64,000 nt of DNA from a virus. Location of the stretch: the IMG/VR virus record IMGVR_UViG_3300017917_000400, positions 1 to 64,000 of that record, one strand, 5' to 3'. The notes beneath the pieces were generated by a model. It searched no databases. It worked only from the letters and a program-made list of their open reading frames with translations, and had not been told where the DNA came from. Of the stretch, positions 776 to 49,190 are shown piece after piece. Made by a program: the position numbers and the translations under genes. How positions within the stretch are numbered: position 1 is the stretch's first letter; every line of letters begins with the position of its first letter.

Positions 776-1054
776 TTAAAATTCTGTACTAGCGTTGCCG
801 CCGTCAATACTGACCACGGCTAAATTCATTTTATTTTGATCGTCAATATAATTAACAGTAATACCACTATGTGTACCAGATGTAAACATACTAGCCGCAT
901 AATCTTGAGCTATTTCTGTTAATTCTGAAACGGTGCTACCTGTTAGTGCATAAAGTTCATTAAAATTACTGTTCACTTTAGCAAACGCATCGCGTACGGT
1001 ATCCCCGTCCTTGGCGTTCAGTGCTGTACCGATGTTAATTGTTTGTTTTGCCAT
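776..1054 (-). CDS. Small virion-associated protein
   Basis: A 92-residue protein that I recognise only as a type of small protein encoded beside fibre genes in marine T4-like phages. The N-terminal half contains GDTVRDAFAKVNSNFNELYA, the signature of a short helical motif found in many phage tail/fibre-associated proteins. The C-terminal half is polar with no membrane segment. It is the first gene of the leftward unit starting at 1054; a GATAAATA late-promoter box lies about 30 bases upstream (1091 to 1084, minus strand), so late expression is likely. Only 12 bases separate it from the next fibre gene. Exact function unknown. Confidence 0.6.
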   Translation of the reverse strand: MAKQTINIGTALNAKDGDTVRDAFAKVNSNFNELYALTGSTVSELTEIAQDYAASMFTSGTHSGITVNYIDDQNKMNLAVVSIDGGNASTEF

Positions 1055-1083: not shown

Positions 1084-1104
1084 TATTTATCGTAGCGATA
1101 AATA
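1084..1104. promoter_or_regulatory. Divergent late promoters in a perfect inverted repeat
   Basis: TATTTATCG, a 3-base spacer TAG, and CGATAAATA form a perfect 9-bp inverted repeat. Each arm carries GATAAATA, one base from the T4 late consensus TATAAATA recognised by gp55-class sigma factors. The minus-strand box (1091-1084) faces the fibre genes ending at 1054. The plus-strand box (1097-1104) faces gene 14 at 1112. Late promoters of T4 need only this -10 element. The plus box is so close to the ATG at 1112 that its transcript would have almost no leader. Confidence 0.65.
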
Positions 1105-1111
1105 TATTACT

Positions 1112-2719
1112 ATGCCAAGATTAAGCCTTTACCGTCCTGAAAAGGGCGCAGATTACAAGTTTTTTGACCGTACAGTCTACGAGATGTTTCAAGTAGGCGG
1201 TGTTGACGTCTATGTACACAAATACATGGGCACAGACGACGGAACTACAGTCAAAGATCATACACAAATTCAGGATCTGCTGTTCCTAGAAAACAGAGAT
1301 CGCAAATACAGTCAGGACATTTACACTATTCGCGGGCATTATCAGACTCAAGATATTGATTTTAATTTAAGCCAATTTGGTTTATTTCTAAGCAACGACA
1401 CAATTTTTATGACTATACATATTAATAACAGTGTAGATTTACTGGGTCGTAAAATTATGCCCGGCGATGTTATAGAATTGCCTAACTTAAAAGACGAATA
1501 TGCAGCCAACGACTATGCTACAGCACTAAAAAGATTCTACGTTGTAGAAGATGTAAATCGTGCCGCAGAAGGATTTTCAGCAACTTGGTATCCACATTTA
1601 TATCGTGTAAAATTAAAGAGCATTGTTGATAGTCAAGAATACAAGGACATATTAGATCGTCCTACAGAAATTGACAACTATGCTGGAGATTATGATCCCA
1701 CAGTAACTTATTATCCCGGTCAAATTGTAAAATACCAAGGCGTACTCTACGAAGTTACACAAGAAATCACAGGCAACGAACCTGGTGTAACAGAAACTAG
1801 TATAGAACCAACAGTCACAGACGACTGGCAAAGTTATTATGCCGTTAGTACCACAGATACTCTTAGAGATCTAATGAGTACCTACGAAAAAGAAAAATCT
1901 ATAAACGACGCAGTAGTAGCAGAAGCAGAAGCAGATGCTAAGAAAAGTGGTTATGAAACTAGTCATTTTTACACAGTTAAAGTTGATGAAACTGGATCAG
2001 GAACTGTCGATCTTACCTTAGTAACCTATGATCAAGATACATCTGTAGATACATCTGTAGATTCTAGTCCATTGCCATTGCGAGATGGGTATTCGGGATA
2101 TTTGTTAGGTGACGGTATAGCACCTAACGGACCAATAGTAGATGTTGATGACATCACTATTCCAGAAGGGCAAGTTGATGCTCAATTTGGTTTTGGTATT
2201 CAATTTCCCAGTACTGCGTATTCTGGAGATATGTTCCTAAGAACAGATTTTTTACCCAATCGTATGTTTAGATTTGACGGACGCCGCTGGGTCAAACAAG
2301 AAGATAATGTACGCATGACTATGACCAACACAGACGATCGTCAAACACAGAAAACTGGATTTATCAATAACACACAAAAATCAGGAATTCGTCAACTGGC
2401 TGCCGACATCATCTACGTTGATCTATTAGGTGATCCAATTTGGGAAAGCGGCAGTATTACGCAAAATCTAGAATTAACAGCGACATCTGCTGTAGTTACT
2501 ACAAATGTTCCTTATAATAAAGATTATCTAGTTGAAGTTTGGCTTGACGAACAAAGCAAAGCCACAAAAATTACAATGTCAAATTTCAGCGGCGCCATAC
2601 AATTTACAATAGGACATCCTATTGCAGATAACAGTGTAATTAGATACACTATCTATGACAAAGTAGTAGCACAAAGACAGAGTCTAAGCAAGGCTCTTAG
2701 ACCACAGGCGGACAACTAA
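1112..2719 (+). CDS. gp14: Neck protein gp14
   Basis: A 535-residue homologue of T4 gp14, which with gp13 forms the neck that closes the head after packaging and joins it to the tail. The match is in the N-terminal ~190 residues: VGGVDVYVHKY, FGLFLSNDTIFMTIHINN, GRKIMPGDVIELP and a C-terminal PHLYRVKLKSI strand correspond to the T4 order of motifs. It is twice the T4 length (256 aa). The extra part contains a short YYPGQIVKYQGVLYEV module like the carbohydrate-binding-type modules of the giant fibres, and a C-terminal domain around FRFDGRRWVKQEDNVRMTM. I chose ATG 1112 over the upstream TTG 1043 because the longer form overlaps the opposing gene and the promoter. Its TAA overlaps the ATG of gene 15 (TAATG). 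Confidence 0.85.
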   Translation: MPRLSLYRPEKGADYKFFDRTVYEMFQVGGVDVYVHKYMGTDDGTTVKDHTQIQDLLFLENRDRKYSQDIYTIRGHYQTQDIDFNLSQFGLFLSNDTIFMTIHINNSVDLLGRKIMPGDVIELPNLKDEYAANDYATALKRFYVVEDVNRAAEGFSATWYPHLYRVKLKSIVDSQEYKDILDRPTEIDNYAGDYDPTVTYYPGQIVKYQGVLYEVTQEITGNEPGVTETSIEPTVTDDWQSYYAVSTTDTLRDLMSTYEKEKSINDAVVAEAEADAKKSGYETSHFYTVKVDETGSGTVDLTLVTYDQDTSVDTSVDSSPLPLRDGYSGYLLGDGIAPNGPIVDVDDITIPEGQVDAQFGFGIQFPSTAYSGDMFLRTDFLPNRMFRFDGRRWVKQEDNVRMTMTNTDDRQTQKTGFINNTQKSGIRQLAADIIYVDLLGDPIWESGSITQNLELTATSAVVTTNVPYNKDYLVEVWLDEQSKATKITMSNFSGAIQFTIGHPIADNSVIRYTIYDKVVAQRQSLSKALRPQADN

Positions 2720-4149
2720 TGCAATATTTCTATGACGGTCAAATAAGACGATACATTGGTCAAGTAATTCGTATGTTAAGCGGATTTAAATATCAAGCCG
2801 CCGACGGGACTCAGCGCACAGTTCCTGTAATGTACGGTGACATGACTCGACAAGTTGGTAGTATTATCAAAGACAATTCTGAAAATAAAATTCCATCTGC
2901 ACCTAGAATAGCCGTGTATGTTACAGGCTTGGCTATGGATAAAACTCGATTAGGGGATGCTACTTTTGTTAGCAAAGTTCATATTCGTGAGCGAGAGTTT
3001 AACGAAAATACTGGAGAATACACTACCAAGCAAGGTAACAATTATACAGTTGAACGATTAATGCCAACGCCGTATAAATTAACATTAAAAGCAGATATAT
3101 GGACTACTAATACTGACATGAAATTACAGATCATGGAACAGATATTGATGTTGTTTAATCCAAGTTTAGAAATACAAACCACAGATAATTTTATCGACTG
3201 GACTAGTTTAAGTGTTGTTGACCTAACTGATATAACTTTTAGCAGTCGTAGTATTCCTGTGGGCAACGAAACTGAAATTGATATTGGTACATTAACATTT
3301 GAAACTCCTATATGGATTAGTCCGCCAACAAAGGTTAAAAAATTAGGAGTAGTTACTGATGTGTTAATGAATATTTTTGACGCAACAGGTAATGTTACTC
3401 CAGAGTTTGCCAACGGTAAACCTACTGCTACTGAATATAACAATGCTGGCGGATATGGATTATTAGTTTATAATAATAAACTAAGTCTACTTAAAGGCAG
3501 AGAACCTATTGCAGTAGATGATGCCAGTGATACAGTGTTTACTAAAATAGGCGATGACATTAGTTGGAACTATATTTTTGAACAGTATCCTGGAAAATTT
3601 AGAACTGGTGTTAGTCAGGTATTTTTGATTCAAGACACTGGCAATCAAGTGGTTGGTACACTCAGCGAAGACCAAGACGACAGTACTATTTTGCATGTTA
3701 ACTGGGATCAGGACACGTTTCCAACTAACACGCTGATAGCCAACGATGCAAATACTGTGCTAAGAGGAACAGTAGATGCTATTGTTGATCCTACTAGATT
3801 TAATCCCAGACCAAGATTGCCAGGCGGCGGCCTAGATTGGCCAGATGTAAGCAACGGCCCAATTAGATATATTATACTAGAGAGCATCGGAGATGAAGTA
3901 AACAATGACGGCCCTGATGGTTGGAAAAATCTCAGCGGTACAGATTTTTATGCTAAAGCAAATAGTATCATCGAGTGGGCTGGAACTCATTGGGAGGTGG
4001 TATTAGATCCCGATGATCCAGAGTTGATAGATACACCGGTTTATATTACTAATTTAAGAACCGGGATACAATACAAGTTTTTTGAAGGATCTTGGACTAA
4101 ATCTTTTGAAGGCGAGTATCCTAAAGGCACTTGGCGCTTAATTTTCTAA
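2719..4149 (+). CDS. gp15: Tail sheath stabilizer and completion protein gp15
   Basis: A 476-residue homologue of T4 gp15, the hexameric terminator that caps the tail tube and sheath and binds the neck. Supporting motifs are the start MQYFYDGQIRRYIGQVIRM (T4: YFYNSSFRRYATLM), RTVPVMYGDMTRQVGSII, PTPYKLTLKADIWTTNTDMK followed by LQIMEQILMLFNPSLEIQ, and FETPIWISPPTKVKKLG; these follow the T4 order over residues ~1-215. T4 gp15 is 272 residues, so about 200 C-terminal residues are extra, ending in repeated W/F/Y-rich turns (YKFFEGSWTKSFEGEYPKGT). It is translationally coupled to gene 14 and is followed 13 bases later by the accessory cassette. Confidence 0.88.
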   Translation: MQYFYDGQIRRYIGQVIRMLSGFKYQAADGTQRTVPVMYGDMTRQVGSIIKDNSENKIPSAPRIAVYVTGLAMDKTRLGDATFVSKVHIREREFNENTGEYTTKQGNNYTVERLMPTPYKLTLKADIWTTNTDMKLQIMEQILMLFNPSLEIQTTDNFIDWTSLSVVDLTDITFSSRSIPVGNETEIDIGTLTFETPIWISPPTKVKKLGVVTDVLMNIFDATGNVTPEFANGKPTATEYNNAGGYGLLVYNNKLSLLKGREPIAVDDASDTVFTKIGDDISWNYIFEQYPGKFRTGVSQVFLIQDTGNQVVGTLSEDQDDSTILHVNWDQDTFPTNTLIANDANTVLRGTVDAIVDPTRFNPRPRLPGGGLDWPDVSNGPIRYIILESIGDEVNNDGPDGWKNLSGTDFYAKANSIIEWAGTHWEVVLDPDDPELIDTPVYITNLRTGIQYKFFEGSWTKSFEGEYPKGTWRLIF

Positions 4150-4162
4150 AATAAGTAAGTGC

Positions 4163-4597
4163 ATGAAAGAACAGATTATCTGCTCTGGCGCACTTTTTTA
4201 TGCCAAATCAACCCGACGATTTTTATTGCTACAAAAAGCCAGTGGCAAGCATGCCAACACCTGGGGACTAGTAGGTGGTACAAACATCGAAGGAGAAACT
4301 GCGTGGCAGGGTCTTCAAAGAGAAATTGAAGAAGAAATTGGTTTTATTCCTCAGATTATTAAAACTATCCCCATTGAAAGTTTTGTCAGCAATGACAGTG
4401 TGTTTAACTTTCACACTTATCTTTGTGTAATTGAAGATGAGTTTATTCCAAAATTAAGCGATGAACACAATGGTTGGGCTTGGGCTAACGTTGATTCTGC
4501 ACCTAAACCCTTACACCAGGGTCTGCGCAGTAGTTTTAGTAACAAGATATTACGCACAAAATTGCAGACAGAATTTGATATTGTAGATTTAATATGA
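4163..4597 (+). CDS. Nudix hydrolase
   Basis: A 144-residue single-domain Nudix protein. Nudix enzymes hydrolyse nucleoside diphosphates linked to another group, using Mg2+ bound by the Nudix box. The complete box G-x5-E-x7-REUxEExGU is present as GTNIEGETAWQGLQ followed by REIEEEIGF at about residues 39-61, so it should be active. The N-terminus IICSGALFYAKSTRRFLLLQK and the WGLVGG lead-in are typical of MutT/NTP-pyrophosphohydrolase relatives. The substrate cannot be told from sequence; dNTPs, nucleotide sugars or ADP-ribose derivatives are all possible. It starts 13 bases after gene 15 and overlaps the next gene by 4 bases (ATGA), so it belongs to the same late transcript. Confidence 0.9.
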   Translation: MKEQIICSGALFYAKSTRRFLLLQKASGKHANTWGLVGGTNIEGETAWQGLQREIEEEIGFIPQIIKTIPIESFVSNDSVFNFHTYLCVIEDEFIPKLSDEHNGWAWANVDSAPKPLHQGLRSSFSNKILRTKLQTEFDIVDLI

Positions 4598-5181
4598 CAC
4601 CCAATCTTATAGTAATAGACAATTTTTTTGAAGATCCGGATGCTGTAAGAAACTTTGCATTAAGTGTTCCCTATGATTTTGTAGCCAACTATCCGGGTAT
4701 GCGAACCAGGGGAGTACATGAAGTACAAAGTTTAGAATTAAAAACAAAATTTGAAAAAATTCTAAACATGCCTATTACTAGATGGGATATCTTTGATGGC
4801 GATAGTGAAAAACAAATGAATACCTGTTATCAATTGTGTTTAGAACAAGACACTACATGGGTGCATCACGATTTTACACAATGGGCGGCTATAATTTATC
4901 TAACTCCTAATGCTGATCCAGACAGCGGCACTGGTCTGTTTATGCATAAGGAAACCGGAGTTACTGAATGGGAAAAGAATGATCCAAAAACAGAATTTAA
5001 CAGAACTGCCGACATGTATGATTTAGATAAATGGCAGTTGACCGCCGAAGTAAAAAACAAATATAATCGTATGATACTTTACAAAGCCAATCAATATCAC
5101 AGAAGTATGAAACCCGGCTTTGGCAATAATTATATCACAGGAAGATTAACGCAGGTGTTTTTCTTTAATACGCATGAATAA
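4594..5181 (+). CDS. Fe(II)/2-oxoglutarate-type oxygenase, DUF6445-like (copy 1)
   Basis: A 195-residue cupin-like protein. Seen in sequence: HHD at 91-93 (the HxD of a facial triad), a distal His169 in YKANQYHRSM, and Arg184 in ITGRLTQVFFF, 15 residues further on, where this superfamily binds 2-oxoglutarate. The strand pattern WVHHDFTQWAAIIYLTP followed by GTGLFMHKETG resembles family DUF6445, recalled from memory rather than searched. The expected reaction is hydroxylation or a related oxidation with O2 and 2-oxoglutarate; the substrate is unknown. The next gene is a clear paralogue of the same length with every triad residue at the same position, so this is a recent tandem duplication. It overlaps the Nudix gene by 4 bases and its own copy by 8 bases. 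Confidence 0.75.
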   Translation: MTPNLIVIDNFFEDPDAVRNFALSVPYDFVANYPGMRTRGVHEVQSLELKTKFEKILNMPITRWDIFDGDSEKQMNTCYQLCLEQDTTWVHHDFTQWAAIIYLTPNADPDSGTGLFMHKETGVTEWEKNDPKTEFNRTADMYDLDKWQLTAEVKNKYNRMILYKANQYHRSMKPGFGNNYITGRLTQVFFFNTHE

Positions 5182-5758
5182 AGATATCATTGTTATTAAT
5201 AATTTCTACGACGATCCCTGGGCTATTAGAGAACAGGCATTAGAGATGGCTCCGTTTCCTATTGTCAACGAGTTGCCTGGACAAAGGACTTTTGGTATAC
5301 CAGAAGAACAAAGCCTAGAATTAAAACAACAATTTGAAAAAATCTTAGGTGTTAATATAACCGAGTGGAGTTTATTTAAAAAAAGAAATGAAAAAAACAA
5401 CACTGCGTTTCAATTGATCACTGAACAAAATACTAGTTGGATTCATCACGATGATACCGACTGGGCCGGCGTCTTATATCTTACACCAGAGCCTGATATA
5501 ACCAGCGGTACTGGATTCTTTACGCATAAGCAGAGCGGTATATTTGAATGGGATCCAAGTAATCCTACTACTGACTTTAATTTACACGAAGATAGATTTG
5601 ATTTTTCTAAGTGGGATTGTAATTTAGAAGTAAAAAATCAGTTTAACAGATTAGTGCTGTACAATAGCAGATTGTATCACAGTAGCATGAAACCGGGATT
5701 TGGTGTAAATTACATGAACGGTCGTTTAACTCAGGTATTTTTCTTTTTTACATCATGA
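5174..5758 (+). CDS. Fe(II)/2-oxoglutarate-type oxygenase, DUF6445-like (copy 2)
   Basis: A 194-residue paralogue of the preceding protein. The triad HHD 91-93, His169 (YNSRLYHSSMKPGFG) and Arg184 (MNGRLTQVFFF) are all kept at identical positions, so both copies look catalytically competent. They differ mostly in residues 60-80 and 125-150, the segments likely to flank the active-site mouth, which suggests different substrates or sites rather than dosage. The start ATG at 5174 lies within the end of copy 1, and the end overlaps the next oxygenase by 4 bases (ATGA). Confidence 0.75.
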   Translation: MNKDIIVINNFYDDPWAIREQALEMAPFPIVNELPGQRTFGIPEEQSLELKQQFEKILGVNITEWSLFKKRNEKNNTAFQLITEQNTSWIHHDDTDWAGVLYLTPEPDITSGTGFFTHKQSGIFEWDPSNPTTDFNLHEDRFDFSKWDCNLEVKNQFNRLVLYNSRLYHSSMKPGFGVNYMNGRLTQVFFFFTS

Positions 5759-6447
5759 TAAAACATTTTAACAATCTAATTTCTAATTTTTATTTAGAAG
5801 ATATACAGGATACTGTATTCAGTGCCGACTATACATGGGTGCGACACAACGAAACTGCTGGCGGTTATAATGGAAATTATGCATGGATCGAAGATGAAAA
5901 TACCGAGGAATGTGATCTGTTTACTCACAAGCCATCAAGAAATCCCAATGATAGATCTATAAACTTTGAACCGCTAATTTACACAATTTCTGATTTAATG
6001 GGCTACAAAATAGAAGTTGACAGAATTAAAACTAATCTAATGTTACCACAATTAAAAAATAAAATCAATGGATACAACAGACCTCATATTGATTTTCCTG
6101 ACAAGGGTATGAAAACGTTATTATTATACTTGAATGATGCGGACGGAGATACTTTTATGTTTGATAAGATTTATACAGGAGAAGATCCTGGAAAATTATC
6201 AGTAATTGAGCGTGTTACTCCTAAAGCAAATTCTGCTATTCTGTTTGATAGCGACAGATATCATGCTAGTTCTATCCCAACACAGGGTAAAAGATCCGTT
6301 ATCAACGTAGTATTTTGGGACGGAAATGCAAAGAAAAACTATCAAGACGAACAAGAAAAAAACATCAACTTACCTTTTGAGCCGCTACCTAACGCATTTC
6401 TTGGCACTGGTCACATAAAAAGTTTTTTCAACAAAGAACAAAAATAA
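5755..6447 (+). CDS. 2OG-Fe(II) oxygenase family protein (type 2, copy 1)
   Basis: A 230-residue protein of a second oxygenase type common in marine myoviruses. Visible features are His111-Ile-Asp113 in YNRPHIDFPDKG, His170 in FDSDRYHASS, and Arg180 in TQGKRSVINVVFW, giving the HxD...H...R order of Fe(II)/2OG dioxygenases of the prolyl-4-hydroxylase-like group. The strand KTLLLYLNDADGDTFMFD and the turn TPKANSAILFDS are family hallmarks. N-terminal 60 residues include YAWIEDENTEE, which is repeated almost exactly in the next gene. The substrate is unknown; prolyl-hydroxylase-like enzymes can act on proteins, but small molecules are not excluded. Confidence 0.82.
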   Translation: MIKHFNNLISNFYLEDIQDTVFSADYTWVRHNETAGGYNGNYAWIEDENTEECDLFTHKPSRNPNDRSINFEPLIYTISDLMGYKIEVDRIKTNLMLPQLKNKINGYNRPHIDFPDKGMKTLLLYLNDADGDTFMFDKIYTGEDPGKLSVIERVTPKANSAILFDSDRYHASSIPTQGKRSVINVVFWDGNAKKNYQDEQEKNINLPFEPLPNAFLGTGHIKSFFNKEQK

Positions 6448-6491
6448 CTTCAGATCTGTAGTTTTAAAGAATTTTTTAGCATAATTACAGT

Positions 6492-7151
6492 ATGATTCAA
6501 TATATTGAAAATTTTGCTTCTGGATTCCTTCAAAAAGATATTCAAAAAGAAATATTATCGTCACCCCATTGGTTATGGCAATATAGAACCGAAACATCTG
6601 GTCAATATGATGCTCCCGACTTTGCATGGATTGAAGACGAAAACACAAAAGATACCCCCCAACTTATTCATGTAGTTGATGACGGGTCAAAAGATATGCA
6701 AATTATAAGTCCATTGATTTATAAAATTGCAGAGACTGTGGGCTACGAATTACAGTTCCAAAGAATCAAAGCCAACTTATTATGGCCAGACGCTGAAAGA
6801 AAAAATCTAAATTCTTATCACAGACCACATGCAGATCATGGAAGAATCGATGCAAAATCTTTAATTTATTATGTTAATGACAGCGACGGCGACACAGTAA
6901 TTTTTAAAAATCGTTGGACTGGTGAAGACCCCGGAACGTTGGAAATTGCTCAGCGCATTACACCAAAGGCAGGGTCAGCAGTGTTATTTGACAGTACACT
7001 TTATCATGCTAGTTCTAGTCCAACCACAGGAGTGCGTTCTGTGTTAAATTTTATTTTTTGGCCTAAACAAATAGATCCGCTGGATCCGGATGGTCTTGCA
7101 CCGCCAATACCAATTAATATACCAATAGGAAAAGGATTTAATAGAATATGA
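6492..7151 (+). CDS. 2OG-Fe(II) oxygenase family protein (type 2, copy 2)
   Basis: A 219-residue paralogue of the preceding gene: FAWIEDENTKD, YHRPHADHG (His113-x-Asp115), YYVNDSDGDTVIF, TPKAGSAVLFDS, LYHASSSPTTG (His172) and VRSVLNFIFW (Arg182) line up throughout. The metal triad and the presumed 2-oxoglutarate Arg are intact. It is the only cassette member preceded by a real gap (44 bases after the previous stop); I see no convincing late or sigma70 promoter in that gap. It overlaps the halogenase by 4 bases (ATGA). Function beyond the family is not known. Confidence 0.82.
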   Translation: MIQYIENFASGFLQKDIQKEILSSPHWLWQYRTETSGQYDAPDFAWIEDENTKDTPQLIHVVDDGSKDMQIISPLIYKIAETVGYELQFQRIKANLLWPDAERKNLNSYHRPHADHGRIDAKSLIYYVNDSDGDTVIFKNRWTGEDPGTLEIAQRITPKAGSAVLFDSTLYHASSSPTTGVRSVLNFIFWPKQIDPLDPDGLAPPIPINIPIGKGFNRI

Positions 7152-8602
7152 AAGTTAAAAGCGTAGGCATCGTTGGCGGTGGCACAGGTGGACTAGTCAC
7201 TGCCCTACTATTAAAGAATTTTTTTCCGTTTTTAAAAGTAGATTTAATAGAATCAAAAGCCATAGGAATCGTAGGCGTCGGTGAAGGATCAACAGAGCAT
7301 TGGGCAAAATTTATGCGCCAGTGTAACATTGATCTAGCAGAATTAGTCAGAGAAACAGATGCAACTTTTAAGTATGGCATTAATTTTGCTAACTGGAACG
7401 GCGACGGGCGTAGTTACATTCAGTCAGTTAATGCAGAAATGAATGCTAACGGACCAACTGGAATTAAATTTGTATATGCAAATCTAATTCAAAGAGGAGT
7501 TGATCCTTTGCATTTAACTAGACCCTATGTTATTAAAAGTGAATTAAGAGAACACAATTATAATATTAATCAGATGCATTTTAACACATTTAAATTAAAT
7601 GAATATTTGCATAAAAAGTGCGAACTTGCAGGCATTGGCTTGATCGAAGCAGAACTAAATGAAGTTCCATTAGATGAAAACGGGTTTATTAAATCTTTAA
7701 AAACTAAAGATGGTCGCACATTTGAATATGATTTTTATGTAGACAGTACCGGCTTTTCAAGATTTATTCTAAACAAGACCATGGGTATTCCATGGAAGAG
7801 CTATTCAAAATATTTGCCGATGAATAGTGCTATTGCATTTCCAACAGAACGTCTCGAAGAAATTCCAGCATGGACTCTTTCACGGGCTATGAAATCTGGA
7901 TGGCTATGGCGTATCCCCACTCAAGAAAGATTTGGCAACGGTTATGTATTCAACGATCAATTTTTAGACTTTGAAGGCGCAAAAAAAGAAGTTGAAGAAC
8001 TGTACGGACACCCTGTTGAAGTTGCAAAACAAATTAAATTTGATGCAGGATGTTTAGAAAAGTCTTGGCATAAAAATTGTTGTGCTATTGGACTTAGCAG
8101 TAGTTTTATAGAACCACTAGAAGCCAGCAGTATTGGTACTAGTATTCAGCAAGCAATTATCTTATGTGAAGTTTTGCCAGACTATGTTCCTGGATATACT
8201 ATGTCTGAACGTATTTTTAATCGACACAGCGATGAAATTTTAGAAAATATTCTGGACTTTGTTGCACTACATTATATCACAAAACGAAACGATACAGAAT
8301 TTTGGAAAAGTACTAAAGAAATACCTAGACCGCCCGGGCTAGAAGAAATGTTAGAAATTTACAAACACAAATTTCCAACCGATCACGACTTTGATAATAA
8401 GCGAGTACTATTCCAAGGTGCAAATTGGATTATTGTTATGCACGGTTTGGGCTTGTTAGATCCTAAAATTGCTGAACAAGAAATACAAAAATTGCCAGAT
8501 TTACTAAAAAATAATATCGATGCACACATGCCTCCTCATTTTACAGATGGCATGATTAGCCATAGACAGGCCATTAATAATCTGTTAAAATTAACAGGAT
8601 GA
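7148..8602 (+). CDS. Flavin-dependent (tryptophan-type) halogenase
   Basis: A 484-residue member of the FADH2-dependent halogenase family, which makes HOCl/HOBr-type species and delivers them through a catalytic lysine. Seen: the N-terminal FAD motif GGGTGG (residues 10-15, GxGxxG); GVGEGSTEHW (43-52); Lys75 in ATFKYGINFANW, aligned with catalytic K79 of PrnA; DSTGFSR (199-205); the family signature WLWRIP (252-257, W.W.IP); and Glu325 in SSFIEPLEASSIG, matching the PrnA E346 segment. All key positions are kept, so activity is expected. A cyanophage relative, VirX1, has been reported as a broad-substrate iodinase. A separate flavin reductase is normally needed and none is visible here, so the host would have to supply it. 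Coupled by ATGA overlaps on both sides. Confidence 0.92.
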   Translation: MKVKSVGIVGGGTGGLVTALLLKNFFPFLKVDLIESKAIGIVGVGEGSTEHWAKFMRQCNIDLAELVRETDATFKYGINFANWNGDGRSYIQSVNAEMNANGPTGIKFVYANLIQRGVDPLHLTRPYVIKSELREHNYNINQMHFNTFKLNEYLHKKCELAGIGLIEAELNEVPLDENGFIKSLKTKDGRTFEYDFYVDSTGFSRFILNKTMGIPWKSYSKYLPMNSAIAFPTERLEEIPAWTLSRAMKSGWLWRIPTQERFGNGYVFNDQFLDFEGAKKEVEELYGHPVEVAKQIKFDAGCLEKSWHKNCCAIGLSSSFIEPLEASSIGTSIQQAIILCEVLPDYVPGYTMSERIFNRHSDEILENILDFVALHYITKRNDTEFWKSTKEIPRPPGLEEMLEIYKHKFPTDHDFDNKRVLFQGANWIIVMHGLGLLDPKIAEQEIQKLPDLLKNNIDAHMPPHFTDGMISHRQAINNLLKLTG

Positions 8603-9303
8603 TATTTTTTAAAAAACCCACAGTCCAATTAGATTGTTTTATTACAAATAATTCTATTGCCGAATTATTTCCAATCTCACATTTAAACGAAAAACTGCCG
8701 GCATGGTGGAAGTCTATGCCTAAGACAGTGCCATCTCCAAACTTTCCTATAGAGATGAGTACTATTAAACGCTGTCCAGGATTTAAAGATCTTTTTAAAA
8801 ATGCACTGTGCGTGCCTGCATGGAGTGAATATCAACTATTTCAAGATCCTAATTTTGGGCTTAGTCACACGGCTCCTAATAGTTTGGCTTCCGGTAATCA
8901 ACATCAACCTGGACAGATGGAGGGAGCATTTCCAGGATATCAGCATTTTAAATTAATTGCACCCTGGGTTATTCAAGAAAAAACTGGTGTACAATTTATA
9001 ATGACACAGGCCAGTTGGCACGATTCAAACCCTTGCGGATTTCATATTCCTGTTGGTTCATTAGAATTTAAATACCAACACTCGGTTCACATCAATCTTA
9101 TTGCGCCAAAAACTGAAGAATTAAAACAATTTAATATACCCGCAGGTCAACCTTTGGTATATCTAATTCCGTTAACTGATAAAAAAATTAAGATAAACAT
9201 ACAAGTTGTAAGTGATGCAGAGTTTAATAAATTTAGAACATATCATCATAGTTTTTACAATAGTTACGAACTAACTAAAAAGATATTAAAGGAAAAAGAA
9301 TGA
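8599..9303 (+). CDS. Conserved protein of unknown function beside the halogenase
   Basis: A 234-residue protein I cannot assign firmly. It is aromatic-rich, with LPAWWKSMPKTVP near residues 34-46, TIKRCPGFKDLF and LCVPAWSEYQ, followed by two beta-rich segments (GVQFIMTQASWHDSNPCGFH and HSVHINLIAPKTEEL) and an IPAGQPLVYLIPLTDKKIKI strand pair. This pattern loosely recalls DUF6065 proteins, an unverified impression. No membrane segment or signal peptide is seen. There are several His and Cys, but no HxD...H triad. It overlaps the halogenase by 4 bases upstream and the next oxygenase by 4 bases downstream, which ties its role to theirs, perhaps as a substrate-binding or accessory subunit. Confidence 0.6.
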   Translation: MIFFKKPTVQLDCFITNNSIAELFPISHLNEKLPAWWKSMPKTVPSPNFPIEMSTIKRCPGFKDLFKNALCVPAWSEYQLFQDPNFGLSHTAPNSLASGNQHQPGQMEGAFPGYQHFKLIAPWVIQEKTGVQFIMTQASWHDSNPCGFHIPVGSLEFKYQHSVHINLIAPKTEELKQFNIPAGQPLVYLIPLTDKKIKINIQVVSDAEFNKFRTYHHSFYNSYELTKKILKEKE

Positions 9304-10004
9304 GTCATCAAGAAGATTATAAAGCCAAAAAAACAGAAGATGAAAATTACGAAGTTCATCCAATATTTCCTATTCCTGTGTATACACGAGAGAATTTTAT
9401 AAAAGATGGCGAGTTTCCAATATTAGATGAAATTGTCAATACTCCCAGAGGACCAACATTTGATTCTAATAGTCTGTATGGTGACCGTAGTGAAAATACT
9501 TACATTTTAAATCAACCCGGTATGTGGGGATTAAAACACAAATTAAACAAATATGTTAATGAATATGCTAATTGTGTATTAGGTCTAGCCGGCGAATACA
9601 CAATTAGCCAAAGTTGGTTGTCTGTTAAAACACCGGGTCAAAAACATATAATGCATACACATGGAAATTCTATTATATCTGGAACATTTTATTTTAATAA
9701 CAAGGATGACGCAGAAGGATTAACATTTATGAAAACAGAGGTATCTAATACCTATCAAATGGTTCCTTTAAAAAATCCTAATGTAAATAATCAGTTTTCG
9801 TTTAATGAAGTAACATTAAAAGTTGAAAATTATATGTTGTGTTTATTTCCTAGTTATCTTGCTCATAAAGTTCAAGGAAATAATACTAAAAACGATAGAT
9901 ATTGTCTGGCCTTTAATGCTGTGCCCAAATATGCGCTAGGAGTAGACACTGAACTAACCGAGTTAGAATTTAAAAGAATTGACAGAGATGCCGATGAGAT
10001 TTGA
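9300..10004 (+). CDS. Putative 2OG-Fe(II) oxygenase (TIGR02466-like)
   Basis: A 234-residue protein with the layout of the TIGR02466 phage oxygenase group. It starts with an HPIFPIPVYTRENF strand and a GLKHKLNKYVNEYANCVLG helix. Then come the core WLSVKTPGQKHIMHTHGNS, ISGTFYFN, a long insertion, PSYLAHKVQG and Arg200 in NDRYCLAFNAVP. Candidate ligands are His119/His121 and His189, with Arg200 for 2-oxoglutarate. The usual HxD is replaced by HTH-G-N here, so the metal site differs from that of the two preceding oxygenase types and activity is less certain. It overlaps the unknown gene upstream (ATGA) and the next gene downstream. Confidence 0.7.
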   Translation: MSHQEDYKAKKTEDENYEVHPIFPIPVYTRENFIKDGEFPILDEIVNTPRGPTFDSNSLYGDRSENTYILNQPGMWGLKHKLNKYVNEYANCVLGLAGEYTISQSWLSVKTPGQKHIMHTHGNSIISGTFYFNNKDDAEGLTFMKTEVSNTYQMVPLKNPNVNNQFSFNEVTLKVENYMLCLFPSYLAHKVQGNNTKNDRYCLAFNAVPKYALGVDTELTELEFKRIDRDADEI

Positions 10005-10578
10005 TTTATGGTTCCCTACAGCAATACTATATGATACGGTAGAAAATGCCGACGATCTAAATAAAAAATTGCTGGAGAGAATTGAAGAAATTAGAAATAC
10101 AATTCCAGCCGGTGGAAGAAATTGGTTGGGGAAACCTTACAATACCTGCGGAACATTAGACATTTCAAAAGATCCTAGTTTTGAAATTATAGTAAAAGAA
10201 ATATCTAAACGTGTACATCATTATGCTAATCGGTTAGGTATAGATACTGCTCGACATCGATTTACTGCCGAAGATGGTTGGTTGAACATTTATAAACAGA
10301 GCGATTTTCAAGAATATCATCACCATGCTACATATCAGTTTTCTGCTGTATATTATGTAAAAGTTCCAGAAAATAGCAGTGAGATTATTTTTGAAAGTCC
10401 AGCACCGCCTGATATGAATCCGTTACCTATTACACTACATAGTCATTTAACAGATCAGCGGGCTCGCTATCCCGTTAAAGCAGGGGATATTGTAATATTT
10501 AGAAGCAACATTAGACACTGTGTTCCTGCACACCAAGGCACAGATGAGAGAATTAGTCTAGCGTTTAATTTTAAATGA
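9988..10578 (+). CDS. Putative 2OG-Fe(II) oxygenase (TIGR02466-like)
   Basis: About 196 residues from ATG 9988; a second ATG at 9994 is also possible, and the upstream TTG at 9979 is less likely. Core motifs are LNIYKQSDFQEYHHHATYQ then FSAVYYVKVP, KAGDIVIFRSNIRHCVPAHQ and DERISLAFNFK. Likely ligands are a His of the 111-113 triplet and His177, with Arg188 for 2-oxoglutarate. As in other TIGR02466-like phage proteins, the classical Asp of HxD is not obvious. It is related in layout to the preceding gene but clearly diverged, an older duplication than the other two pairs. It overlaps the preceding gene by 17 bases and sits one base before the carbamoyltransferase start. Confidence 0.75.
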   Translation: MPMRFDLWFPTAILYDTVENADDLNKKLLERIEEIRNTIPAGGRNWLGKPYNTCGTLDISKDPSFEIIVKEISKRVHHYANRLGIDTARHRFTAEDGWLNIYKQSDFQEYHHHATYQFSAVYYVKVPENSSEIIFESPAPPDMNPLPITLHSHLTDQRARYPVKAGDIVIFRSNIRHCVPAHQGTDERISLAFNFK

Positions 10579-10579
10579 T

Positions 10580-12073
10580 ATGAAATTTCTAGGCCTTAGA
10601 CTGTGCGATCATGATTCAAATATAACATATACCGACGGTGTTAATGTTAGGTATATAAAGTCTGAGCGAATTCATCAGATAAAACATCACGGTTATAATA
10701 ATTTTGATGGATACATTGAAGATATTAAAAACTGGAATATTAATTTCGATGAACTAGATGCAGTGGCCATTTGTGTTGATCAGCACAAACTAAATTTTGA
10801 AAAACAAGATGTTTTGTGGCAACTGGCTCCTAATTTTTTGCCTGGCATAACTTGTCCTATTTACATAATTGATCATCACTATGCACATTCATTGAGTTGC
10901 TGGCCTGTTGTTGATGTGGACACAGTCGATACTGCGTTTGTATTCGATGGTGTTGGTGATTTTCAAATTACCAATTCTATTTTTAAAAAAGACGAACGAA
11001 TTTCTAAATCAAACGTTTCAGGTGTTGGCGTATTGCTGTCAATGTGGGGAAACTTTATAGGAATAGAAGGCCATCCGCTAGATGTTAGTGGAAAAGTTAT
11101 GGCGCTAAAGTCTTACGGAAAAGTTAATAAAGAATTTCTTGATAAATTTTCAAATCTAGATATACTAGACGCTTCAAAAGTATTCTATCTTCAAAATTGG
11201 ATACCGTATCTTAGAGCAGATTCGAGTAGCCTCGAAGGAATTAAACCAGGAAGTCTAGATTGGATTGCATCTATACACCAATGGATTGAAGATAAAATTC
11301 CTGAGTATTTTTTAAAGTTTGCAAATCCTAACGATGTAATCACATTTTCGGGCGGTGTTGCACAAAACATTTGTGTAAACAGTCGTCTTAAAAAAGTTTT
11401 TAAAAACTTACACATTATTCCACATAATCCCGACGACGGATTGTCATTAGGGTGTGTAGAATTTCTGCGAAGAAAATTTAATCAACCAAAATTTAACAAT
11501 GATAATTTTCCGTTTTGGCAAGATGAAACAAGTCCTGACATTCCTAGTAACGAAACAATTGAAAAAATTGCAGAGTATCTTGCTGAAGGAAAAATTGTTG
11601 GGTGGTTTCAGGGACAAGGAGAGATTGGTCCAAGAGCATTGGGCAACAGATCAATTCTAATGCGACCAGATATTCCTAATGGAAAAGATATTATTAATAA
11701 AAGAGTAAAATTTAGAGAAAGTTATAGACCGTTTGGTTGTAGTGTTTTAGAAAATAAAACACAAGAATATTTTGAGTGTGATTATTCTAGTCCTTATATG
11801 TTGTATGCTGTTCCAGTAAAAGACCATTTGCTTTTAGAATCTATTACACACGTAGACGGAACTAGCAGAATACAAACAGTTAACGATTCTCAACCTGTAT
11901 TTTTTAATTTGTTGTCCAAATTTTACGAAAAAACTGGATTGCCTGTTTTGTTAAACACATCTTTAAACGTCAATAAAAAACCCATTGCGTCAACTAGTGA
12001 ACATGCAATGGGTGTTTTTGAAACTACAGAATTAGATGTGCTCTGTATTGGAAATAAAATTATTGTTAAATAA
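10580..12073 (+). CDS. Carbamoyltransferase (NodU/CmcH/TobZ family)
   Basis: A 497-residue two-domain protein. In this family the C-terminal YrdC-like domain makes carbamoyl-AMP from carbamoyl phosphate and ATP, and the N-terminal Kae1-like domain moves the carbamoyl group onto a hydroxyl of an acceptor. Seen: the metal motif HHYAH (99-103), FDGVGD (122-127), FSGGVAQNICVNSRL (256-270), PHNPDDGLSLG, and the C-terminal-domain signature QGEIGPRALGNRSIL (346-360) with PVLLNTSLNVN near the end. Length is slightly below typical members (about 550-600). The acceptor is unknown. As oxygenases upstream could create hydroxyls, a hydroxylate-then-carbamoylate order is an attractive inference. It ends convergently, overlapping the opposing gene by 8 bases. 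Confidence 0.9.
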   Translation: MKFLGLRLCDHDSNITYTDGVNVRYIKSERIHQIKHHGYNNFDGYIEDIKNWNINFDELDAVAICVDQHKLNFEKQDVLWQLAPNFLPGITCPIYIIDHHYAHSLSCWPVVDVDTVDTAFVFDGVGDFQITNSIFKKDERISKSNVSGVGVLLSMWGNFIGIEGHPLDVSGKVMALKSYGKVNKEFLDKFSNLDILDASKVFYLQNWIPYLRADSSSLEGIKPGSLDWIASIHQWIEDKIPEYFLKFANPNDVITFSGGVAQNICVNSRLKKVFKNLHIIPHNPDDGLSLGCVEFLRRKFNQPKFNNDNFPFWQDETSPDIPSNETIEKIAEYLAEGKIVGWFQGQGEIGPRALGNRSILMRPDIPNGKDIINKRVKFRESYRPFGCSVLENKTQEYFECDYSSPYMLYAVPVKDHLLLESITHVDGTSRIQTVNDSQPVFFNLLSKFYEKTGLPVLLNTSLNVNKKPIASTSEHAMGVFETTELDVLCIGNKIIVK

Positions 12074-12569
12074 TTTCTGGTGGCGTGTAAGGGTATGTCT
12101 TAGAAGGCAAACTAATATCTGGGTTTTGCATTATAGTAAAATCTGGAAATGCTCCCTTTAATGTACCTAATGCAGATCCTCTCCAAGGTAATGAGGGATC
12201 CTGTTTAGGAAATTGCTCTTTAATTGCCTTAACATCGTCATACATTGGTTGAATTTTTGGGATTAATCCATCATCCATTGCATGCCATAATGCGTCTAAC
12301 TGAGATTCTAAAGTAGGATATGCTGTTTTTCTCAGCATCTTATATTTGACTTTTTCATCCCACTCTGTTTGTATTTGATTTAAGTAAGACTCAACTTCTT
12401 CTTTAGTTGGTGGAACCCAGTCAGAATCTTCTGGATGTTGCCATACAACATGCTCATAATCATATTCTCCCGTTTCTGGGTTTTGATCGCTTCTAAAACA
12501 CGCACCTGGACACATTAAAGCAAGTGCTTCAATAAGTTGCGGTCTTGTTACAAATGAAAATCCTGGCAT
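12066..12569 (-). CDS. Conserved phage protein, XkdW-like C-terminal motif
   Basis: A 167-residue protein at the downstream end of the leftward fibre operon. The segment YPTLESQLDALWHAMDDGLI followed by PMYDDVKAIKEQFP is a recurring phage motif (XkdW-like region) often found in tail-fibre-associated or assembly proteins. The N-terminal 60 residues include GACFRSDQNPETGEYDYEHV. Position last after three fibre-tip genes fits a fibre assembly or attachment role, as T4 gp38-like proteins do, but sequence similarity to gp38 is not seen. A CGGAGA Shine-Dalgarno and a possible late promoter (AATAAATA) sit upstream. Confidence 0.6.
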   Translation of the reverse strand: MPGFSFVTRPQLIEALALMCPGACFRSDQNPETGEYDYEHVVWQHPEDSDWVPPTKEEVESYLNQIQTEWDEKVKYKMLRKTAYPTLESQLDALWHAMDDGLIPKIQPMYDDVKAIKEQFPKQDPSLPWRGSALGTLKGAFPDFTIMQNPDISLPSKTYPYTPPEII

Positions 12570-12590: not shown

Positions 12591-12598
12591 TATTTATT
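12591..12598 (-). promoter_or_regulatory. Candidate late promoter
   Basis: AATAAATA on the minus strand, 22 bases before the ATG at 12569. The spacing matches that of the GATAAATA box before the 3154-residue protein. It overlaps the stop-codon region of the preceding fibre-tip gene, so chance occurrence in AT-rich DNA cannot be excluded. Confidence 0.4.
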
Positions 12599-13250
12599 GT
12601 CTAATTTCTGTGATTCTTCCAAAACAGACACCATTTTCGTGATTGTTTTGTCCGCCTGAACCAGTAATACGGTTCATATTAAATGTTCGTGTACCGCCAT
12701 CGGTACTAGCAAATGCTGGTTCGTAATAAATTGCCGATGTAGTGGCTGGGAAATCATAGAATAAAATCTTTACTGATTTTGGTGTACTATTGTTGTCTGG
12801 ATCATACCATGCGGCATTAATAAAACTATGATTATTTCTACCGCTGTTGTTATTGTATCCGCCACTGCCAAAGTCTACTGATCCGTTACGTGCTACACGA
12901 ACACCCGCATCGTGGTTGTTTGGTTCGCCGTGTATAAACCACTCGCAGATAATAAGACTGTTTGAATACTGTGGTGTTATGTTTAGTCTTAATACTGTGG
13001 CAAGATTTCCTGGATAACTAGTTGGCATACTATATTGTGGTCGTGGGTCATATCGAATAACTGATGTTTGGATTACCGCACCGGTATAATTCATATTAGC
13101 GCGACCGATTGCACCGTCGGCTATAGAAGCATTTGTAATTCCCAGAGCAGATAAACTAGAATTGGGTAAACTATTTAAAGATGCTCCGGATCCACTTAGG
13201 GTAGTAGCCGAAACACTACCATTAATTGTTGTTCCTTGTAACTGTGCCAT
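12594..13250 (-). CDS. Fibre-tip-like protein, paralogue 3 of 3
   Basis: A 218-residue protein, the last of three tandem paralogues. All share a start of the MATLQ..S.NG type, then a GSG-rich collar, an A(V)LQT..IRYDPRP block, ITPQYSNSLIICEWFIHGEP, and the same C-terminal end NNHENGV.FGRITEIRQ. Central loops differ, including DFGSGGYNNNSGRNNHSF. The architecture of short N-terminal attachment, conserved jelly-roll-like frame and variable loops is what receptor-binding tips look like; function is inferred from that and from position after an S74 fibre gene. An AAGGATAAAGG ribosome binding site precedes it, 9 bases after the previous gene. Confidence 0.65.
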   Translation of the reverse strand: MAQLQGTTINGSVSATTLSGSGASLNSLPNSSLSALGITNASIADGAIGRANMNYTGAVIQTSVIRYDPRPQYSMPTSYPGNLATVLRLNITPQYSNSLIICEWFIHGEPNNHDAGVRVARNGSVDFGSGGYNNNSGRNNHSFINAAWYDPDNNSTPKSVKILFYDFPATTSAIYYEPAFASTDGGTRTFNMNRITGSGGQNNHENGVCFGRITEIRQ

Positions 13251-13259: not shown

Positions 13260-13931
13260 TTATTGTCTAATCTCTGTAATTCGGCCAAAACTTACACCAT
13301 TTTCATGGTTAACTTGTCCCGAACTTCCTACTGTTCTATTAAGGAAGAATGTTCTAGTACCGCCATCGTTGCTACCGTACACAGGATCATATGTTCTAGT
13401 AGCAGTGCTTCCTGGAACATCATAATATGTTAGTAAAGAACATGTTGGTGTAGAACCTTGATCCTGGTCGTAAAATGTATCTCCTAATAGATATGAGTGA
13501 CTGTTTTGACCTACGTTACTATTATATGTTGGGTATGATCCACCTACTAGGTTACCACTGTTAATAGAAACAAACCAACCCGAATCGTGGTTGCCTGCTT
13601 CGCCGTGTATCCACCACTCGCAGACAATTAAACTATTAGAATATTGTGGAGTGATAGTAAGTCTTAGTTCTTGTATTCTTGTTCCGCCGGTGGTGCCGTT
13701 AGTTGGTCCGCTGTATGTTGGTCTAGGATCATATCTAATTACGTTTGTTTGTAAAACTGCGCCAGCAAAATTTAATTTGCCTCTTGTTACTGCATTAGCG
13801 TTGAATTGAGCATTTGCTAATGTATTGCCGTTAAGATTTGACGAGGTTAAACTAGTTACCCCGTTGCCGTTTCCGCTGAACGTAGTAGCAGATAGTGTAC
13901 CCGAAACCGACGATCCTTGTAGTGTTGCCAT
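13260..13931 (-). CDS. Fibre-tip-like protein, paralogue 2 of 3
   Basis: A 223-residue paralogue of its neighbours. Conserved frame: VLQTNVIRYDPRPTYSGPT, LRLTITPQYSNSLIVCEWWI with HGEAGNHDSGW, GGTRTFFLNRTVGSSGQ and NHENGVSFGRITEIRQ. The variable part (residues ~95-165) differs from the other two in the NLVGGSYPTYNSNVGQNSHS stretch. Spacing to both neighbours is 9 bases. No catalytic motif is seen. Confidence 0.65.
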   Translation of the reverse strand: MATLQGSSVSGTLSATTFSGNGNGVTSLTSSNLNGNTLANAQFNANAVTRGKLNFAGAVLQTNVIRYDPRPTYSGPTNGTTGGTRIQELRLTITPQYSNSLIVCEWWIHGEAGNHDSGWFVSINSGNLVGGSYPTYNSNVGQNSHSYLLGDTFYDQDQGSTPTCSLLTYYDVPGSTATRTYDPVYGSNDGGTRTFFLNRTVGSSGQVNHENGVSFGRITEIRQ

Positions 13932-13940: not shown

Positions 13941-14600
13941 TTATTGTCTAATCTCTGTAATGCGTCCCCAACTTACACCGTTTTCGTGGTTGTTTTGACC
14001 GCCACTGCTAATTGGTCTATTTTGAAAATATGTTCTTGTATTACCGTCATTGCTGCCTACCTGCGGGTCATAAAAGACCGAAGAGGTAGTTCCTGGAAAA
14101 TCATAAAACAAGAAACTAGGTGATTGCGGTGTTGAGCTATCGTCCGAGTCGTACCACTCTGAGTTGATATAACTGTGATTGTTGTTTCCGGTATCTGTAT
14201 TGTGTCCCGCATAGGTTCCGGTTAATAAAGAACCGTTTCGAGCTACTCTAAATCCACAGTCATGACTGCCTGCTTCGCCGTGCAATCTCCACTCACAGAT
14301 AATAAGACTGTTTGAATAAGTTGGGGTAATAGTTAAACGCATACTTGACACCAGTGTGCCGTTGCCAGTGGGTGCGCTCCATCCTGGTCTAGGATCATAG
14401 CGTATTAGGATAGTCTGTAATACTGCACCAGCATAGCCCATTTTTGTACGACCAATTGTATTGTCTGCAATTTTATCGTTGGTTATTGCACCGCCAACAA
14501 AGGCTGTTCCTGGAATACTGCTTAAACTACCACCAGAACCGCTGATAGTTCCTGTAACTGTTAATGTTCCGTTAACTGATGTTGCTTGCAGTGTTGCCAT
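13941..14600 (-). CDS. Fibre-tip-like protein, paralogue 1 of 3
   Basis: A 219-residue protein, first of the tandem set in transcription order and 2 bases after the S74-type fibre gene. It shows the same frame: VLQTILIRYDPRPGWSAPT, MRLTITPTYSNSLIICEWRL with HGEAGSHDCGFRVARNGS, GNTRTYFQNRPISSGGQ and NHENGVSWGRITEIRQ. Shared RVARNGS with paralogue 3 but not paralogue 2 hints at segmental exchange between copies. Probable receptor-binding tip or fibre-decorating protein; the ligand is unknown. Confidence 0.65.
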   Translation of the reverse strand: MATLQATSVNGTLTVTGTISGSGGSLSSIPGTAFVGGAITNDKIADNTIGRTKMGYAGAVLQTILIRYDPRPGWSAPTGNGTLVSSMRLTITPTYSNSLIICEWRLHGEAGSHDCGFRVARNGSLLTGTYAGHNTDTGNNNHSYINSEWYDSDDSSTPQSPSFLFYDFPGTTSSVFYDPQVGSNDGNTRTYFQNRPISSGGQNNHENGVSWGRITEIRQ

Positions 14601-25588: not shown

Positions 25589-25610
25589 TTAATGCTCCAT
25601 CCGTATATGT

Positions 25611-25618
25611 TATTTATC
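25611..25618 (-). promoter_or_regulatory. Late promoter for the 3154-residue fibre gene
   Basis: GATAAATA on the minus strand, 23 bases before the ATG at 25588 and within the short gap after the upstream giant gene. A GGATGGAG ribosome binding region follows. Same box as at 1084-1104. Confidence 0.6.
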
Positions 25619-25635
25619 TTAGTTTATATTTCCGA

Positions 25636-48614: not shown

Positions 48615-49190
48615 TTAATAAAATATTACAGATTTAAACTCATCATAAGTGAGTGTACTGTAGTTTTCATATTTCTTCCAACCAAACTCAATACTACCTG
48701 GTTCAGTTACTCTAATGTATTTAGTATTAGGAAATTCTTTTATAACACTTTCGGTCTGTCTTTGCCAGTTTCCGTGAAAGGTTGCAGGTTCTACACTGCG
48801 TCTATAATTGTGTGTATCAGCATAGACATTGTTTAATTTGTTATTAATTCCAACATAATCAAAACCTAAAATATAGATAGTTTCATAACCGTGTGTGCTG
48901 GCTAACCATAGTGCTGTTGGGCCACTACTCCAACCTTTACTTGGTTCAAAAAAGTTTAATCCGTGGATATTTTTTATTTTTGTATTGAGATTAGTGTACA
49001 CAGGAATACGTCTGTGTACTGCATTATCTGTTAATTCTAGAACCATTTTTGGATCTACAGCCACAAGATAATCCGGGTCGCAGTCCCTATATAGTGCGTT
49101 ACAACCGTATAATTTTCCTAGAGATTTTAATCTATTAGGCTCAACGGCCATACGGCTACGTCCGTTGCCTAATACAAAGGCGTGATTCAT
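48615..49190 (-). CDS. Glycosyltransferase-like / MAF-type protein inserted in the head cassette
   Basis: A 191-residue protein. Its start AFVLGNGRSRMAVEPNRLKS with GKLYGCNALYRDCDPDYLVA then VDPKMV matches the nucleotide-sugar-binding layout of sialyltransferase-like (GT42, CstII) and DUF115/MAF proteins, where 'GNGPS' and 'CN..Y' line the CMP-sugar site. GWSSGPTALWLASTHGYETI then YILGFDY continues that fold. Family placement is by motif recall only. It stands between the conserved 79-residue gene and the acidic core protein and has its own terminator. A role in glycosylating a virion protein is possible but unproven. Confidence 0.6.
   Translation of the reverse strand: MNHAFVLGNGRSRMAVEPNRLKSLGKLYGCNALYRDCDPDYLVAVDPKMVLELTDNAVHRRIPVYTNLNTKIKNIHGLNFFEPSKGWSSGPTALWLASTHGYETIYILGFDYVGINNKLNNVYADTHNYRRSVEPATFHGNWQRQTESVIKEFPNTKYIRVTEPGSIEFGWKKYENYSTLTYDEFKSVIFY

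Follow-up and report, generated by a model that had tools for sequence, protein, structure and literature searches.

A halogenase, oxygenase and carbamoyltransferase cassette conserved with small tail-fibre genes in a T4-like phage: a candidate system for late tailoring of virion proteins

Why would a T4-like phage carry, between its neck and tail-fibre genes, a flavin-dependent halogenase (FDH), several oxygenases and a carbamoyltransferase, and on what would these enzymes act? The question is raised by positions 4163-12073 of a 64,000-nucleotide stretch of viral DNA (hereafter the window), which is positions 1-64,000 of the IMG/VR record IMGVR_UViG_3300017917_000400, an incomplete contig of 104,075 bp. 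Here we find that the enzymes encoded from position 4594 onward are conserved as one set together with a chaperone-like gene and three small tail-fibre genes that face them, and that the promoter layout points to late expression. Enzymatic tailoring of fibre or virion proteins late in infection is our best explanation of what is directly observed, namely the genes with their catalytic motifs, the arrangement of late promoters, the module shared with the fibre trio and its recurrence beside fibre genes in other phages. We rate this explanation somewhat short of an even chance, and we infer the reactions, their order, the protein substrate and the benefit.

A conserved unit of enzymes and small fibre genes

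Ten plus-strand open reading frames (ORFs) occupy 4163-12073, downstream of neck genes 14 and 15. After a Nudix hydrolase gene (4163..4597; NUDIX, 4e-16), the cassette consists, all on the plus strand, of two tandem DUF6445 genes (a, 4594..5181; b, 5174..5758), two genes for oxygenases dependent on iron and 2-oxoglutarate (2OG) (OxyA, 5755..6447; OxyB, 6492..7151), the FDH gene (7148..8602), a gene that we call c7 (8599..9303), a pair of TIGR02466/2OG-FeII_Oxy_5 genes (a, 9300..10004; b, 9994..10578) and the gene for a NodU/TobZ-type O-carbamoyltransferase (10580..12073). They are tightly packed, with successive overlaps of 4, 8, 4, 4, 4 and 4 nucleotides (nt) and one of 11 nt inside the TIGR02466 pair if the second member starts at the ATG at 9994 (26 nt from the possible upstream TTG at 9979); the gaps are 13 nt between gene 15 and the Nudix gene, 44 nt before OxyB and 1 nt before the carbamoyltransferase gene. 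Convergent with this run, on the minus strand, lie a gene for a fibre-chaperone-like protein (12066..12569) and three for small tail-fibre proteins (12594..13250, phrog_6942; 13260..13931; 13941..14600).

A search of viral contigs with the halogenase as query gave 49 loci. The contigs L001 and L002 (L numbers denote the contigs compared with the window) carry an FDH 79 and 77% identical to that of the window. Their gene order is nearly that of the window: DUF6445, OxyA, DUF6445, OxyB, FDH, c7, an extra gene, the TIGR02466 genes and the carbamoyltransferase, with the chaperone-like gene and the small fibre genes on the opposite strand. When a fibre protein was used as query instead, three contigs were returned, L001, L002 and the independently found L223, and all three carry the cassette; again, in L223 it converges on the same fibre genes. 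The order with FDH, c7 and carbamoyltransferase is thus fixed in four phages. L223 also holds a 79-aa DUF6445 fragment (13409-13645, minus strand) beside its carbamoyltransferase gene, a decayed gene or a frameshift.

Protein identities delimit this unit. Between the window and L001 they are 58-80% in the cassette, 68% for the chaperone-like protein and 75-84% for the fibre trio, against 61% for gp14, 50% for gp15 and 32% for the Nudix protein; towards L002 the genes further outward fall to 37 and 46%. In the comparison with L223 the fibre trio is 69-80% identical, the enzymes 48-74% and the chaperone-like protein 43%, with 46-49% for the gene labelled s384 and the large fibre. Over the three relatives, enzymes at 48-80% and the trio at 69-84% stand against gp14 at 61, gp15 at 48-50, Nudix at 32, s384 at 37-46, the gene labelled s110 at 46-48 and the large fibre at 49%. 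Judged by protein conservation, the conserved unit is the cassette plus the chaperone-like gene and the three small fibre genes, the Nudix and neck genes being outside it. Because synonymous sites are saturated both within the module and around it, the identities reveal a shared constraint at the protein level and permit no claim of a recent horizontal transfer.

Late expression of the cassette together with the virion genes is well supported by the promoter layout, because a late promoter lies before gene 14, none occurs in the cassette, and the layout recurs in relatives. The promoter in question, the T4-type sequence GATAAATA (1097..1104, plus strand), lies about 14-15 nt before the gene 14 ATG at 1112 and is the only plus-strand late-promoter core before or inside the cassette. 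A scan of the window found no ATAAATA core within the cassette and 8 copies overall, rarer than the 29.4 expected from shuffles; 7 of the 8 have a clear gene start close behind them, among them the core at 1098 before gene 14, and a short ORF follows the remaining copy at 49453 on the minus strand. The core at 12591..12597 (minus strand) serves the convergent chaperone-like gene. The two marks of a T4-type late transcription unit are thus both present, NATAAATA just 5′ of a gene start and an encoded gp55 late sigma factor (phrog_12791, 1.2e-76). Sigma-70-like matches are at chance level (44 versus 48.7 expected). Divergent from gene 14 is a short gene (776-1054, minus strand) whose product has a T4 gp9/10 N-terminal domain and which has its own late core at 1084-1090.

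In L001 and L002 a late core precedes the first cassette gene itself, by 34 and 36 nt respectively, and a minus-strand fibre-connector gene (phrog_677 in L001, 4529-6559) separates gp15 and Nudix from the cassette. Syn10, a cyanophage considered further below, likewise has a late core 33 nt before the gene that precedes its two halogenases.

Profile searches with hidden Markov models (Pfam, PHROG, NCBIfam) bore out the description of the locus given by an earlier reading, made without database searches (the sequence-only reading): ten same-strand genes, most of them overlapping, after genes 14 and 15, with the family types it had proposed. Its view that the enzymes are made late, with virion proteins, is still the best reading of the promoter layout, which it could follow in the window and which recurs in relatives. 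Two other elements had to be given up. It had counted the Nudix hydrolase in the tailoring set and had described the cassette as fused to the neck operon; the two closest relatives cut the Nudix gene off by the connector gene and the cassette's own promoter, so that the cassette is a separate late unit, and the window phage either lost or never gained the intervening gene. Indeed, the Nudix gene tracks gp15, coming after it in PA5oct-like jumbo phages and in relatives whose cargo is otherwise different, and its product is 32% identical where the cassette reaches 58-80%. We therefore reject it as a tailoring member and assign it to the gp15 operon. The search for synteny that the sequence-only reading had suggested found the gene order kept in close relatives, and the fibre linkage is stronger than that reading could see, because in three of three close relatives the cassette is kept together with a single set of small fibre genes.

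The T4-like nature of the phage is indicated in the record by gp15 (2719..4149, plus strand; T4-gp15_tss, 3e-22, a tail sheath stabiliser), portal, major head protein, protease, gp46/47-like proteins and gp55. The neck or virion structural protein in gene 14 position (1112..2719, plus strand) owes the name gp14 to its match to phrog_11591 and its position, with no T4 gp14 model behind the assignment. Photosystem genes, psbA included, were not found in the 104-kb record, and a cyanobacterial host is therefore not indicated; tRNA-based host prediction gave nothing.

The enzymes of the cassette

The halogenase is a full-length member of the Trp_halogenase family (PF04820, 2e-100; 337 bits versus a cut-off of 21), with GGGTGG, ATFKYG bearing the catalytic Lys75, GWLWRIP, and FIEPLEASS with Glu325; Lys75 and Glu325 are invariant in 15 relatives. 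Its closest solved relatives are the halogenases 6y1w, 9luq and 6frl. In the FDH tree it belongs to a separate clade composed of viruses only (support 1.00), and VirX1, the Syn10 enzyme of known structure (PDB 6qgm), to another, so that membership of the VirX1 clade is rejected. A flavin reductase (PF01613), a common companion of these enzymes, which is not essential to the family, had no match in the 104-kb record, in Syn10 or in HTVC008M; we assume that the host supplies the reduced flavin (FADH2).

The two DUF6445 proteins (profile E values of 2e-13 and 3e-12; 53% identical to each other) are best read as active hydroxylases. In 18 of 18 aligned sequences H91, D93, H169 and R184 are invariant, and the predicted structure (pLDDT 91) is a double-stranded beta-helix in which the HxD is kept and whose best PDB matches are PHD2, OGFOD1 and BesD, at E of about 1e-5, a bacterial prolyl 4-hydroxylase coming lower in the list. 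Several of these structural neighbours act on proteins. The likeness to PHD2, OGFOD1 and the bacterial hydroxylase lies in the predicted fold and the conserved HxD...H...R, whereas the identity is about 11-14% and TM-scores are about 0.5-0.6. OxyA and OxyB match 2OG-FeII_Oxy_3 (PF13640; 1.5e-6 and 3e-6, or 29.5 and 28.4 bits versus a cut-off of 27), and each carries the superfamily's iron-binding signature, HID in the former and HAD in the latter followed by H...R. They are 45.6% identical to each other and, like the DUF6445 genes, form a tandem duplicate pair. The sequence-only reading had seen in these four clear HxD...H...R oxygenase-like proteins, and in the FDH a halogenase with all key residues; both descriptions hold, the latter down to the FAD glycine motif, WxWxIP, Lys75 and Glu325. 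PHROG names DUF6445 a "minor coat protein" and the oxygenases a "DNA endonuclease V"; we set both names aside as label errors, as Pfam, the motifs and the DUF6445 model indicate oxygenases.

The TIGR02466 pair matches 2OG-FeII_Oxy_5 at 4e-20 and 9e-20, and the second protein matches TIGR02466 at 4e-26, the first falling slightly below the model cut-off. Despite this strong family match, both have HxH where HxD is expected at the first iron site. Their solved relatives, 2rg4 and 3bvc, are uncharacterised proteins.

The carbamoyltransferase has both domains (phrog_1601, 4e-158; Carbam_trans N, 5e-18, and C, 1.7e-58) and a DHHYAHS at residue 98 that contains the HxxxH metal site. Its HxxxH and GPRALGNRS motifs align with those of TobZ, but it has 497 aa versus 576 in TobZ, and its NCBIfam NodU score of 100.9 is far below the cut-off of 1000. 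As a single query in viral contigs it returned nothing.

What is c7? The protein matches phrog_7084 (1.5e-16), and in most of 20 hits, several of which are near-identical contigs, no more than 31 nt separate its gene from an FDH gene; in Syn10 a homologue directly follows VirX1. The model (pLDDT 73) gives a weak but consistent match to the dUTPase fold (E 5.5e-4, TM 0.59 on target). None of 11 members had a Pfam match, the sequences were too diverged for alignment, and c7 as a single query in viral contigs returned nothing. Our guess is that it is a partner of the FDH or a substrate handler. Members of the family occur at L059 11499-12284 and L062 3672-4448.

Related cassettes in other phages

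Beyond the close relatives, distant T4-like contigs (L005, L010-L012, L017-L019, L023, L044, L046 and L228) have gp15 and Nudix followed by up to five halogenases and several oxygenases beside fibre or baseplate genes. The cassettes of L005, L012 and L046, each with multiple FDHs, adjoin fibre or baseplate genes, and the three FDHs of L005 come from different branches of the tree, one of them from the VirX1 group. L228 (1-8427) has, after gp14, gp15 and Nudix, three FDHs preceded by a c7-like gene and a TIGR02466 gene. An unrelated phage-like contig, L063, has fibre-like genes, an oxygenase, FDH, TIGR02466 and Oxy in a row.

In Syn10 the fibre genes are followed by two FDHs, the second identical to VirX1, then by the c7 homologue and a run of oxygenases. 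VirX1 resembles the window FDH as a phage PF04820 enzyme whose gene comes after fibre genes and a late-promoter core and has a c7 homologue and then 2OG oxygenases directly behind it; it differs in being about 29% identical, in its clade, and in that no carbamoyltransferase was recognised in the Syn10 region read. Between its gp15 and large terminase genes, Pelagibacter phage HTVC008M encodes a PhyH oxygenase and an FDH, with four more oxygenases beside neck genes, but it has no DUF6445, c7 or carbamoyltransferase there, and another gene order. Among bacterial FDH loci a few also have DUF6445 nearby (7 of 80 with just DUF6445 and FDH). Three contigs titled as bacterial metagenome-assembled genomes, L061 (Porticoccaceae), L062 (Actinomycetota) and L063 (Maricaulis), carry FDH and oxygenase genes; L061 and L063 are phage-like by their genes and may be misbinned, and because of this content no host can be named from them.

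What would the enzymes act on?

We propose that 4594-12073 would constitute one late, virion-phase chemical tailoring module, the Nudix gene excluded. Several of the Fe(II)/2OG oxygenases would hydroxylate side chains, the FDH would halogenate aromatic ones with FADH2 from the host, and the NodU/TobZ-type enzyme would O-carbamoylate hydroxyls, perhaps those made by the oxygenases; such reactions are what one expects of these families. The likeliest substrates would be proteins that the phage itself makes late. First among the candidates are the products of the convergent genes that are co-inherited with the cassette, namely the three small fibre proteins and their chaperone-like partner, and the outcome may be a changed adhesion or stability of the fibre tips.

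Several points weigh against late tailoring of virion proteins. For the characterised members of the FDH family (Trp halogenases, BrvH and VirX1), the substrates in vitro are free small molecules, and we know of no modified residue or virion mass data for any such phage. Transcription may also begin earlier, since the sigma-70-like matches, though at chance level, include one of 11/12 at 5038-5067, inside the cassette. Co-inheritance is read from protein conservation, the exact module is present in only three close relatives, of which two closely resemble each other, and the identity gap between enzymes and structural proteins may in part stem from the usual differences in constraint, which would not explain the conservation of the fibre trio. 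Furthermore, in other phage lineages (L027, L029, L030 and L037) a lone FDH has no oxygenases with it, in L009 an FDH lies among T4 replication genes, and in L061 FDH and oxygenases are scattered among replication genes. Scattered, unlinked occurrence in relatives was what the sequence-only reading had said would refute its view, and it is seen in part: the halogenase alone is unlinked in other phage lineages. Finally, a region of accessory genes after gene 15 has already been described in cyanophages, so that position alone is weak evidence (PMC2984593).

Could the cassette instead tailor a small molecule made late, such as a host metabolite, an indole or tryptophan derivative or a short peptide, serving for example as a signal or to inhibit competitors or a second infection? 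We consider this unlikely, yet worth weighing, since the closest solved relatives of the FDH are 6y1w, 9luq and 6frl, a tailoring set of several enzymes recalls the gene clusters of natural products, VirX1 takes diverse small substrates according to the title of its paper (cited in PMC10452541), and cyanophage prnA has been suggested to give antibiotic protection (PMC2984593, PMC9964418). The late, fibre-linked layout and the co-conservation of the fibre trio with the enzymes argue in the other direction, as does the content of the cassette, in which profile searches found no scaffold-forming enzyme, carrier protein, transporter or resistance gene; we count the missing scaffold gene in favour of virion-protein tailoring. 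Remodelling of a host-derived or phage-carried glycan or of the cell surface, through carbamoylated or hydroxylated sugars that would change adsorption or block superinfection, seems to us improbable. NodU and TobZ, the characterised relatives of the carbamoyltransferase, act on sugar-containing acceptors, but neither a glycosyltransferase nor an enzyme of sugar-nucleotide metabolism was recognised in the cassette, L001, L002 or L223, and late timing is ill-suited to superinfection exclusion; cyanophage genes for cell-wall modification do lie beside many oxygenases (PMC9602691).

Two further readings appear to us very improbable, the second even more so than the first. The oxygenases might drain 2OG and so steer host nitrogen or energy metabolism, the other enzymes being unrelated cargo of a hyperplastic region. 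Such a role was suggested for cyanophage 2OG oxygenases (PMC3037559), and a hypervariable g15-g18 region with 4-14 inserted genes exists in cyanophages (PMC2984593); the proposal depends, however, on cyanobacterial NtcA, and a photosystem gene is lacking from what was found in the 104-kb record. Late timing also fits it poorly, the fixed order in four phages is not that of random cargo, and a pure sink needs no set of divergent active sites. As for hypermodification of phage DNA by the carbamoyltransferase and oxygenases, one carbamoyltransferase is known to produce 5-carbamoyloxymethylcytosine, and thymidylate-synthase homologues occur together with it (PMC8670742). That carbamoyltransferase resembles the window enzyme in being phage-encoded and of the same Pfam families, and differs in its neighbourhood and in that no dCMP hydroxymethylase (Asp177 type) was found in the incomplete record of the window phage. 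The single thymidylate-synthase homologue of the record (89247-90068 of the full record) keeps PFNIASY with Asn177, the mark of the canonical dUMP enzyme and not of a dCMP hydroxymethylase (PMC8670742), and adjoins a dihydrofolate reductase-like gene; no homologue was found in L012, L018, Syn10 or HTVC008M, all of which have FDH/oxygenase cassettes. We disfavour DNA hypermodification on these two grounds, and it also fits late, fibre-linked expression poorly.

Late tailoring of virion proteins can be extended, more doubtfully, to a post-translational modification system for the phage's own tail fibres, with hydroxylation, halogenation and O-carbamoylation during assembly, inherited with the target fibre genes and existing in versions widespread in marine T4-like phages; the natural substrate of VirX1 would then be a virion protein.

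The single enzymes and the insertion site after gene 15 are already known. Phage halogenases, many 2OG oxygenases and carbamoyltransferases have been recorded in cyanophages (PMC3037559, PMC9602691, PMC9964418, PMC9146016), with suggested roles in nitrogen and 2OG metabolism, DNA repair, antibiotic protection and unspecified protein modification. The hyperplastic region g15-g18 of cyanomyoviruses (Millard et al. 2009, as described in PMC2984593) likewise places accessory genes immediately behind gene 15 of a T4-like structural module; as that account presents it, the cargo is mainly photosynthesis and carbon-metabolism genes, whereas the window has a fixed FDH/oxygenase/carbamoyltransferase set tied to fibres, and psbA was not found in its record. 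As far as the literature shows, what is new is the fixed module with a carbamoyltransferase, its co-conservation with the fibre trio, its own late promoter, c7 as neighbour of FDHs including VirX1, and the assignment of DUF6445 to the oxygenases. Phage halogenases and 2OG oxygenases have been catalogued as auxiliary metabolic genes for more than 15 years; a late module conserved with defined fibre genes makes the question of what they act on directly testable on virions of cultured phages such as Syn10. If tailoring of fibres is true, phages would diversify their receptor-binding surface chemically besides by mutation, and would be a source of enzymes that halogenate or carbamoylate folded proteins.

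Some other features of the phage may be recorded here. Two paralogous giant fibre proteins of 3154 and 2623 aa (16124-33507, minus strand) have repeated W...Y...GG..Y.C modules resembling CBM5/12 carbohydrate-binding repeats, and residues 194-220 of the gene 14 product form a CBM_5_12-like stretch too. The head-gene block includes a gene (48615-49190, minus strand) whose product of 191 aa weakly matches an alpha-2,3-sialyltransferase PHROG. Directly after baseplate-like genes, G000 68370-82454 (L051 5371-19455) is an ORF of 4694 aa, very large for a T4-like baseplate gene.

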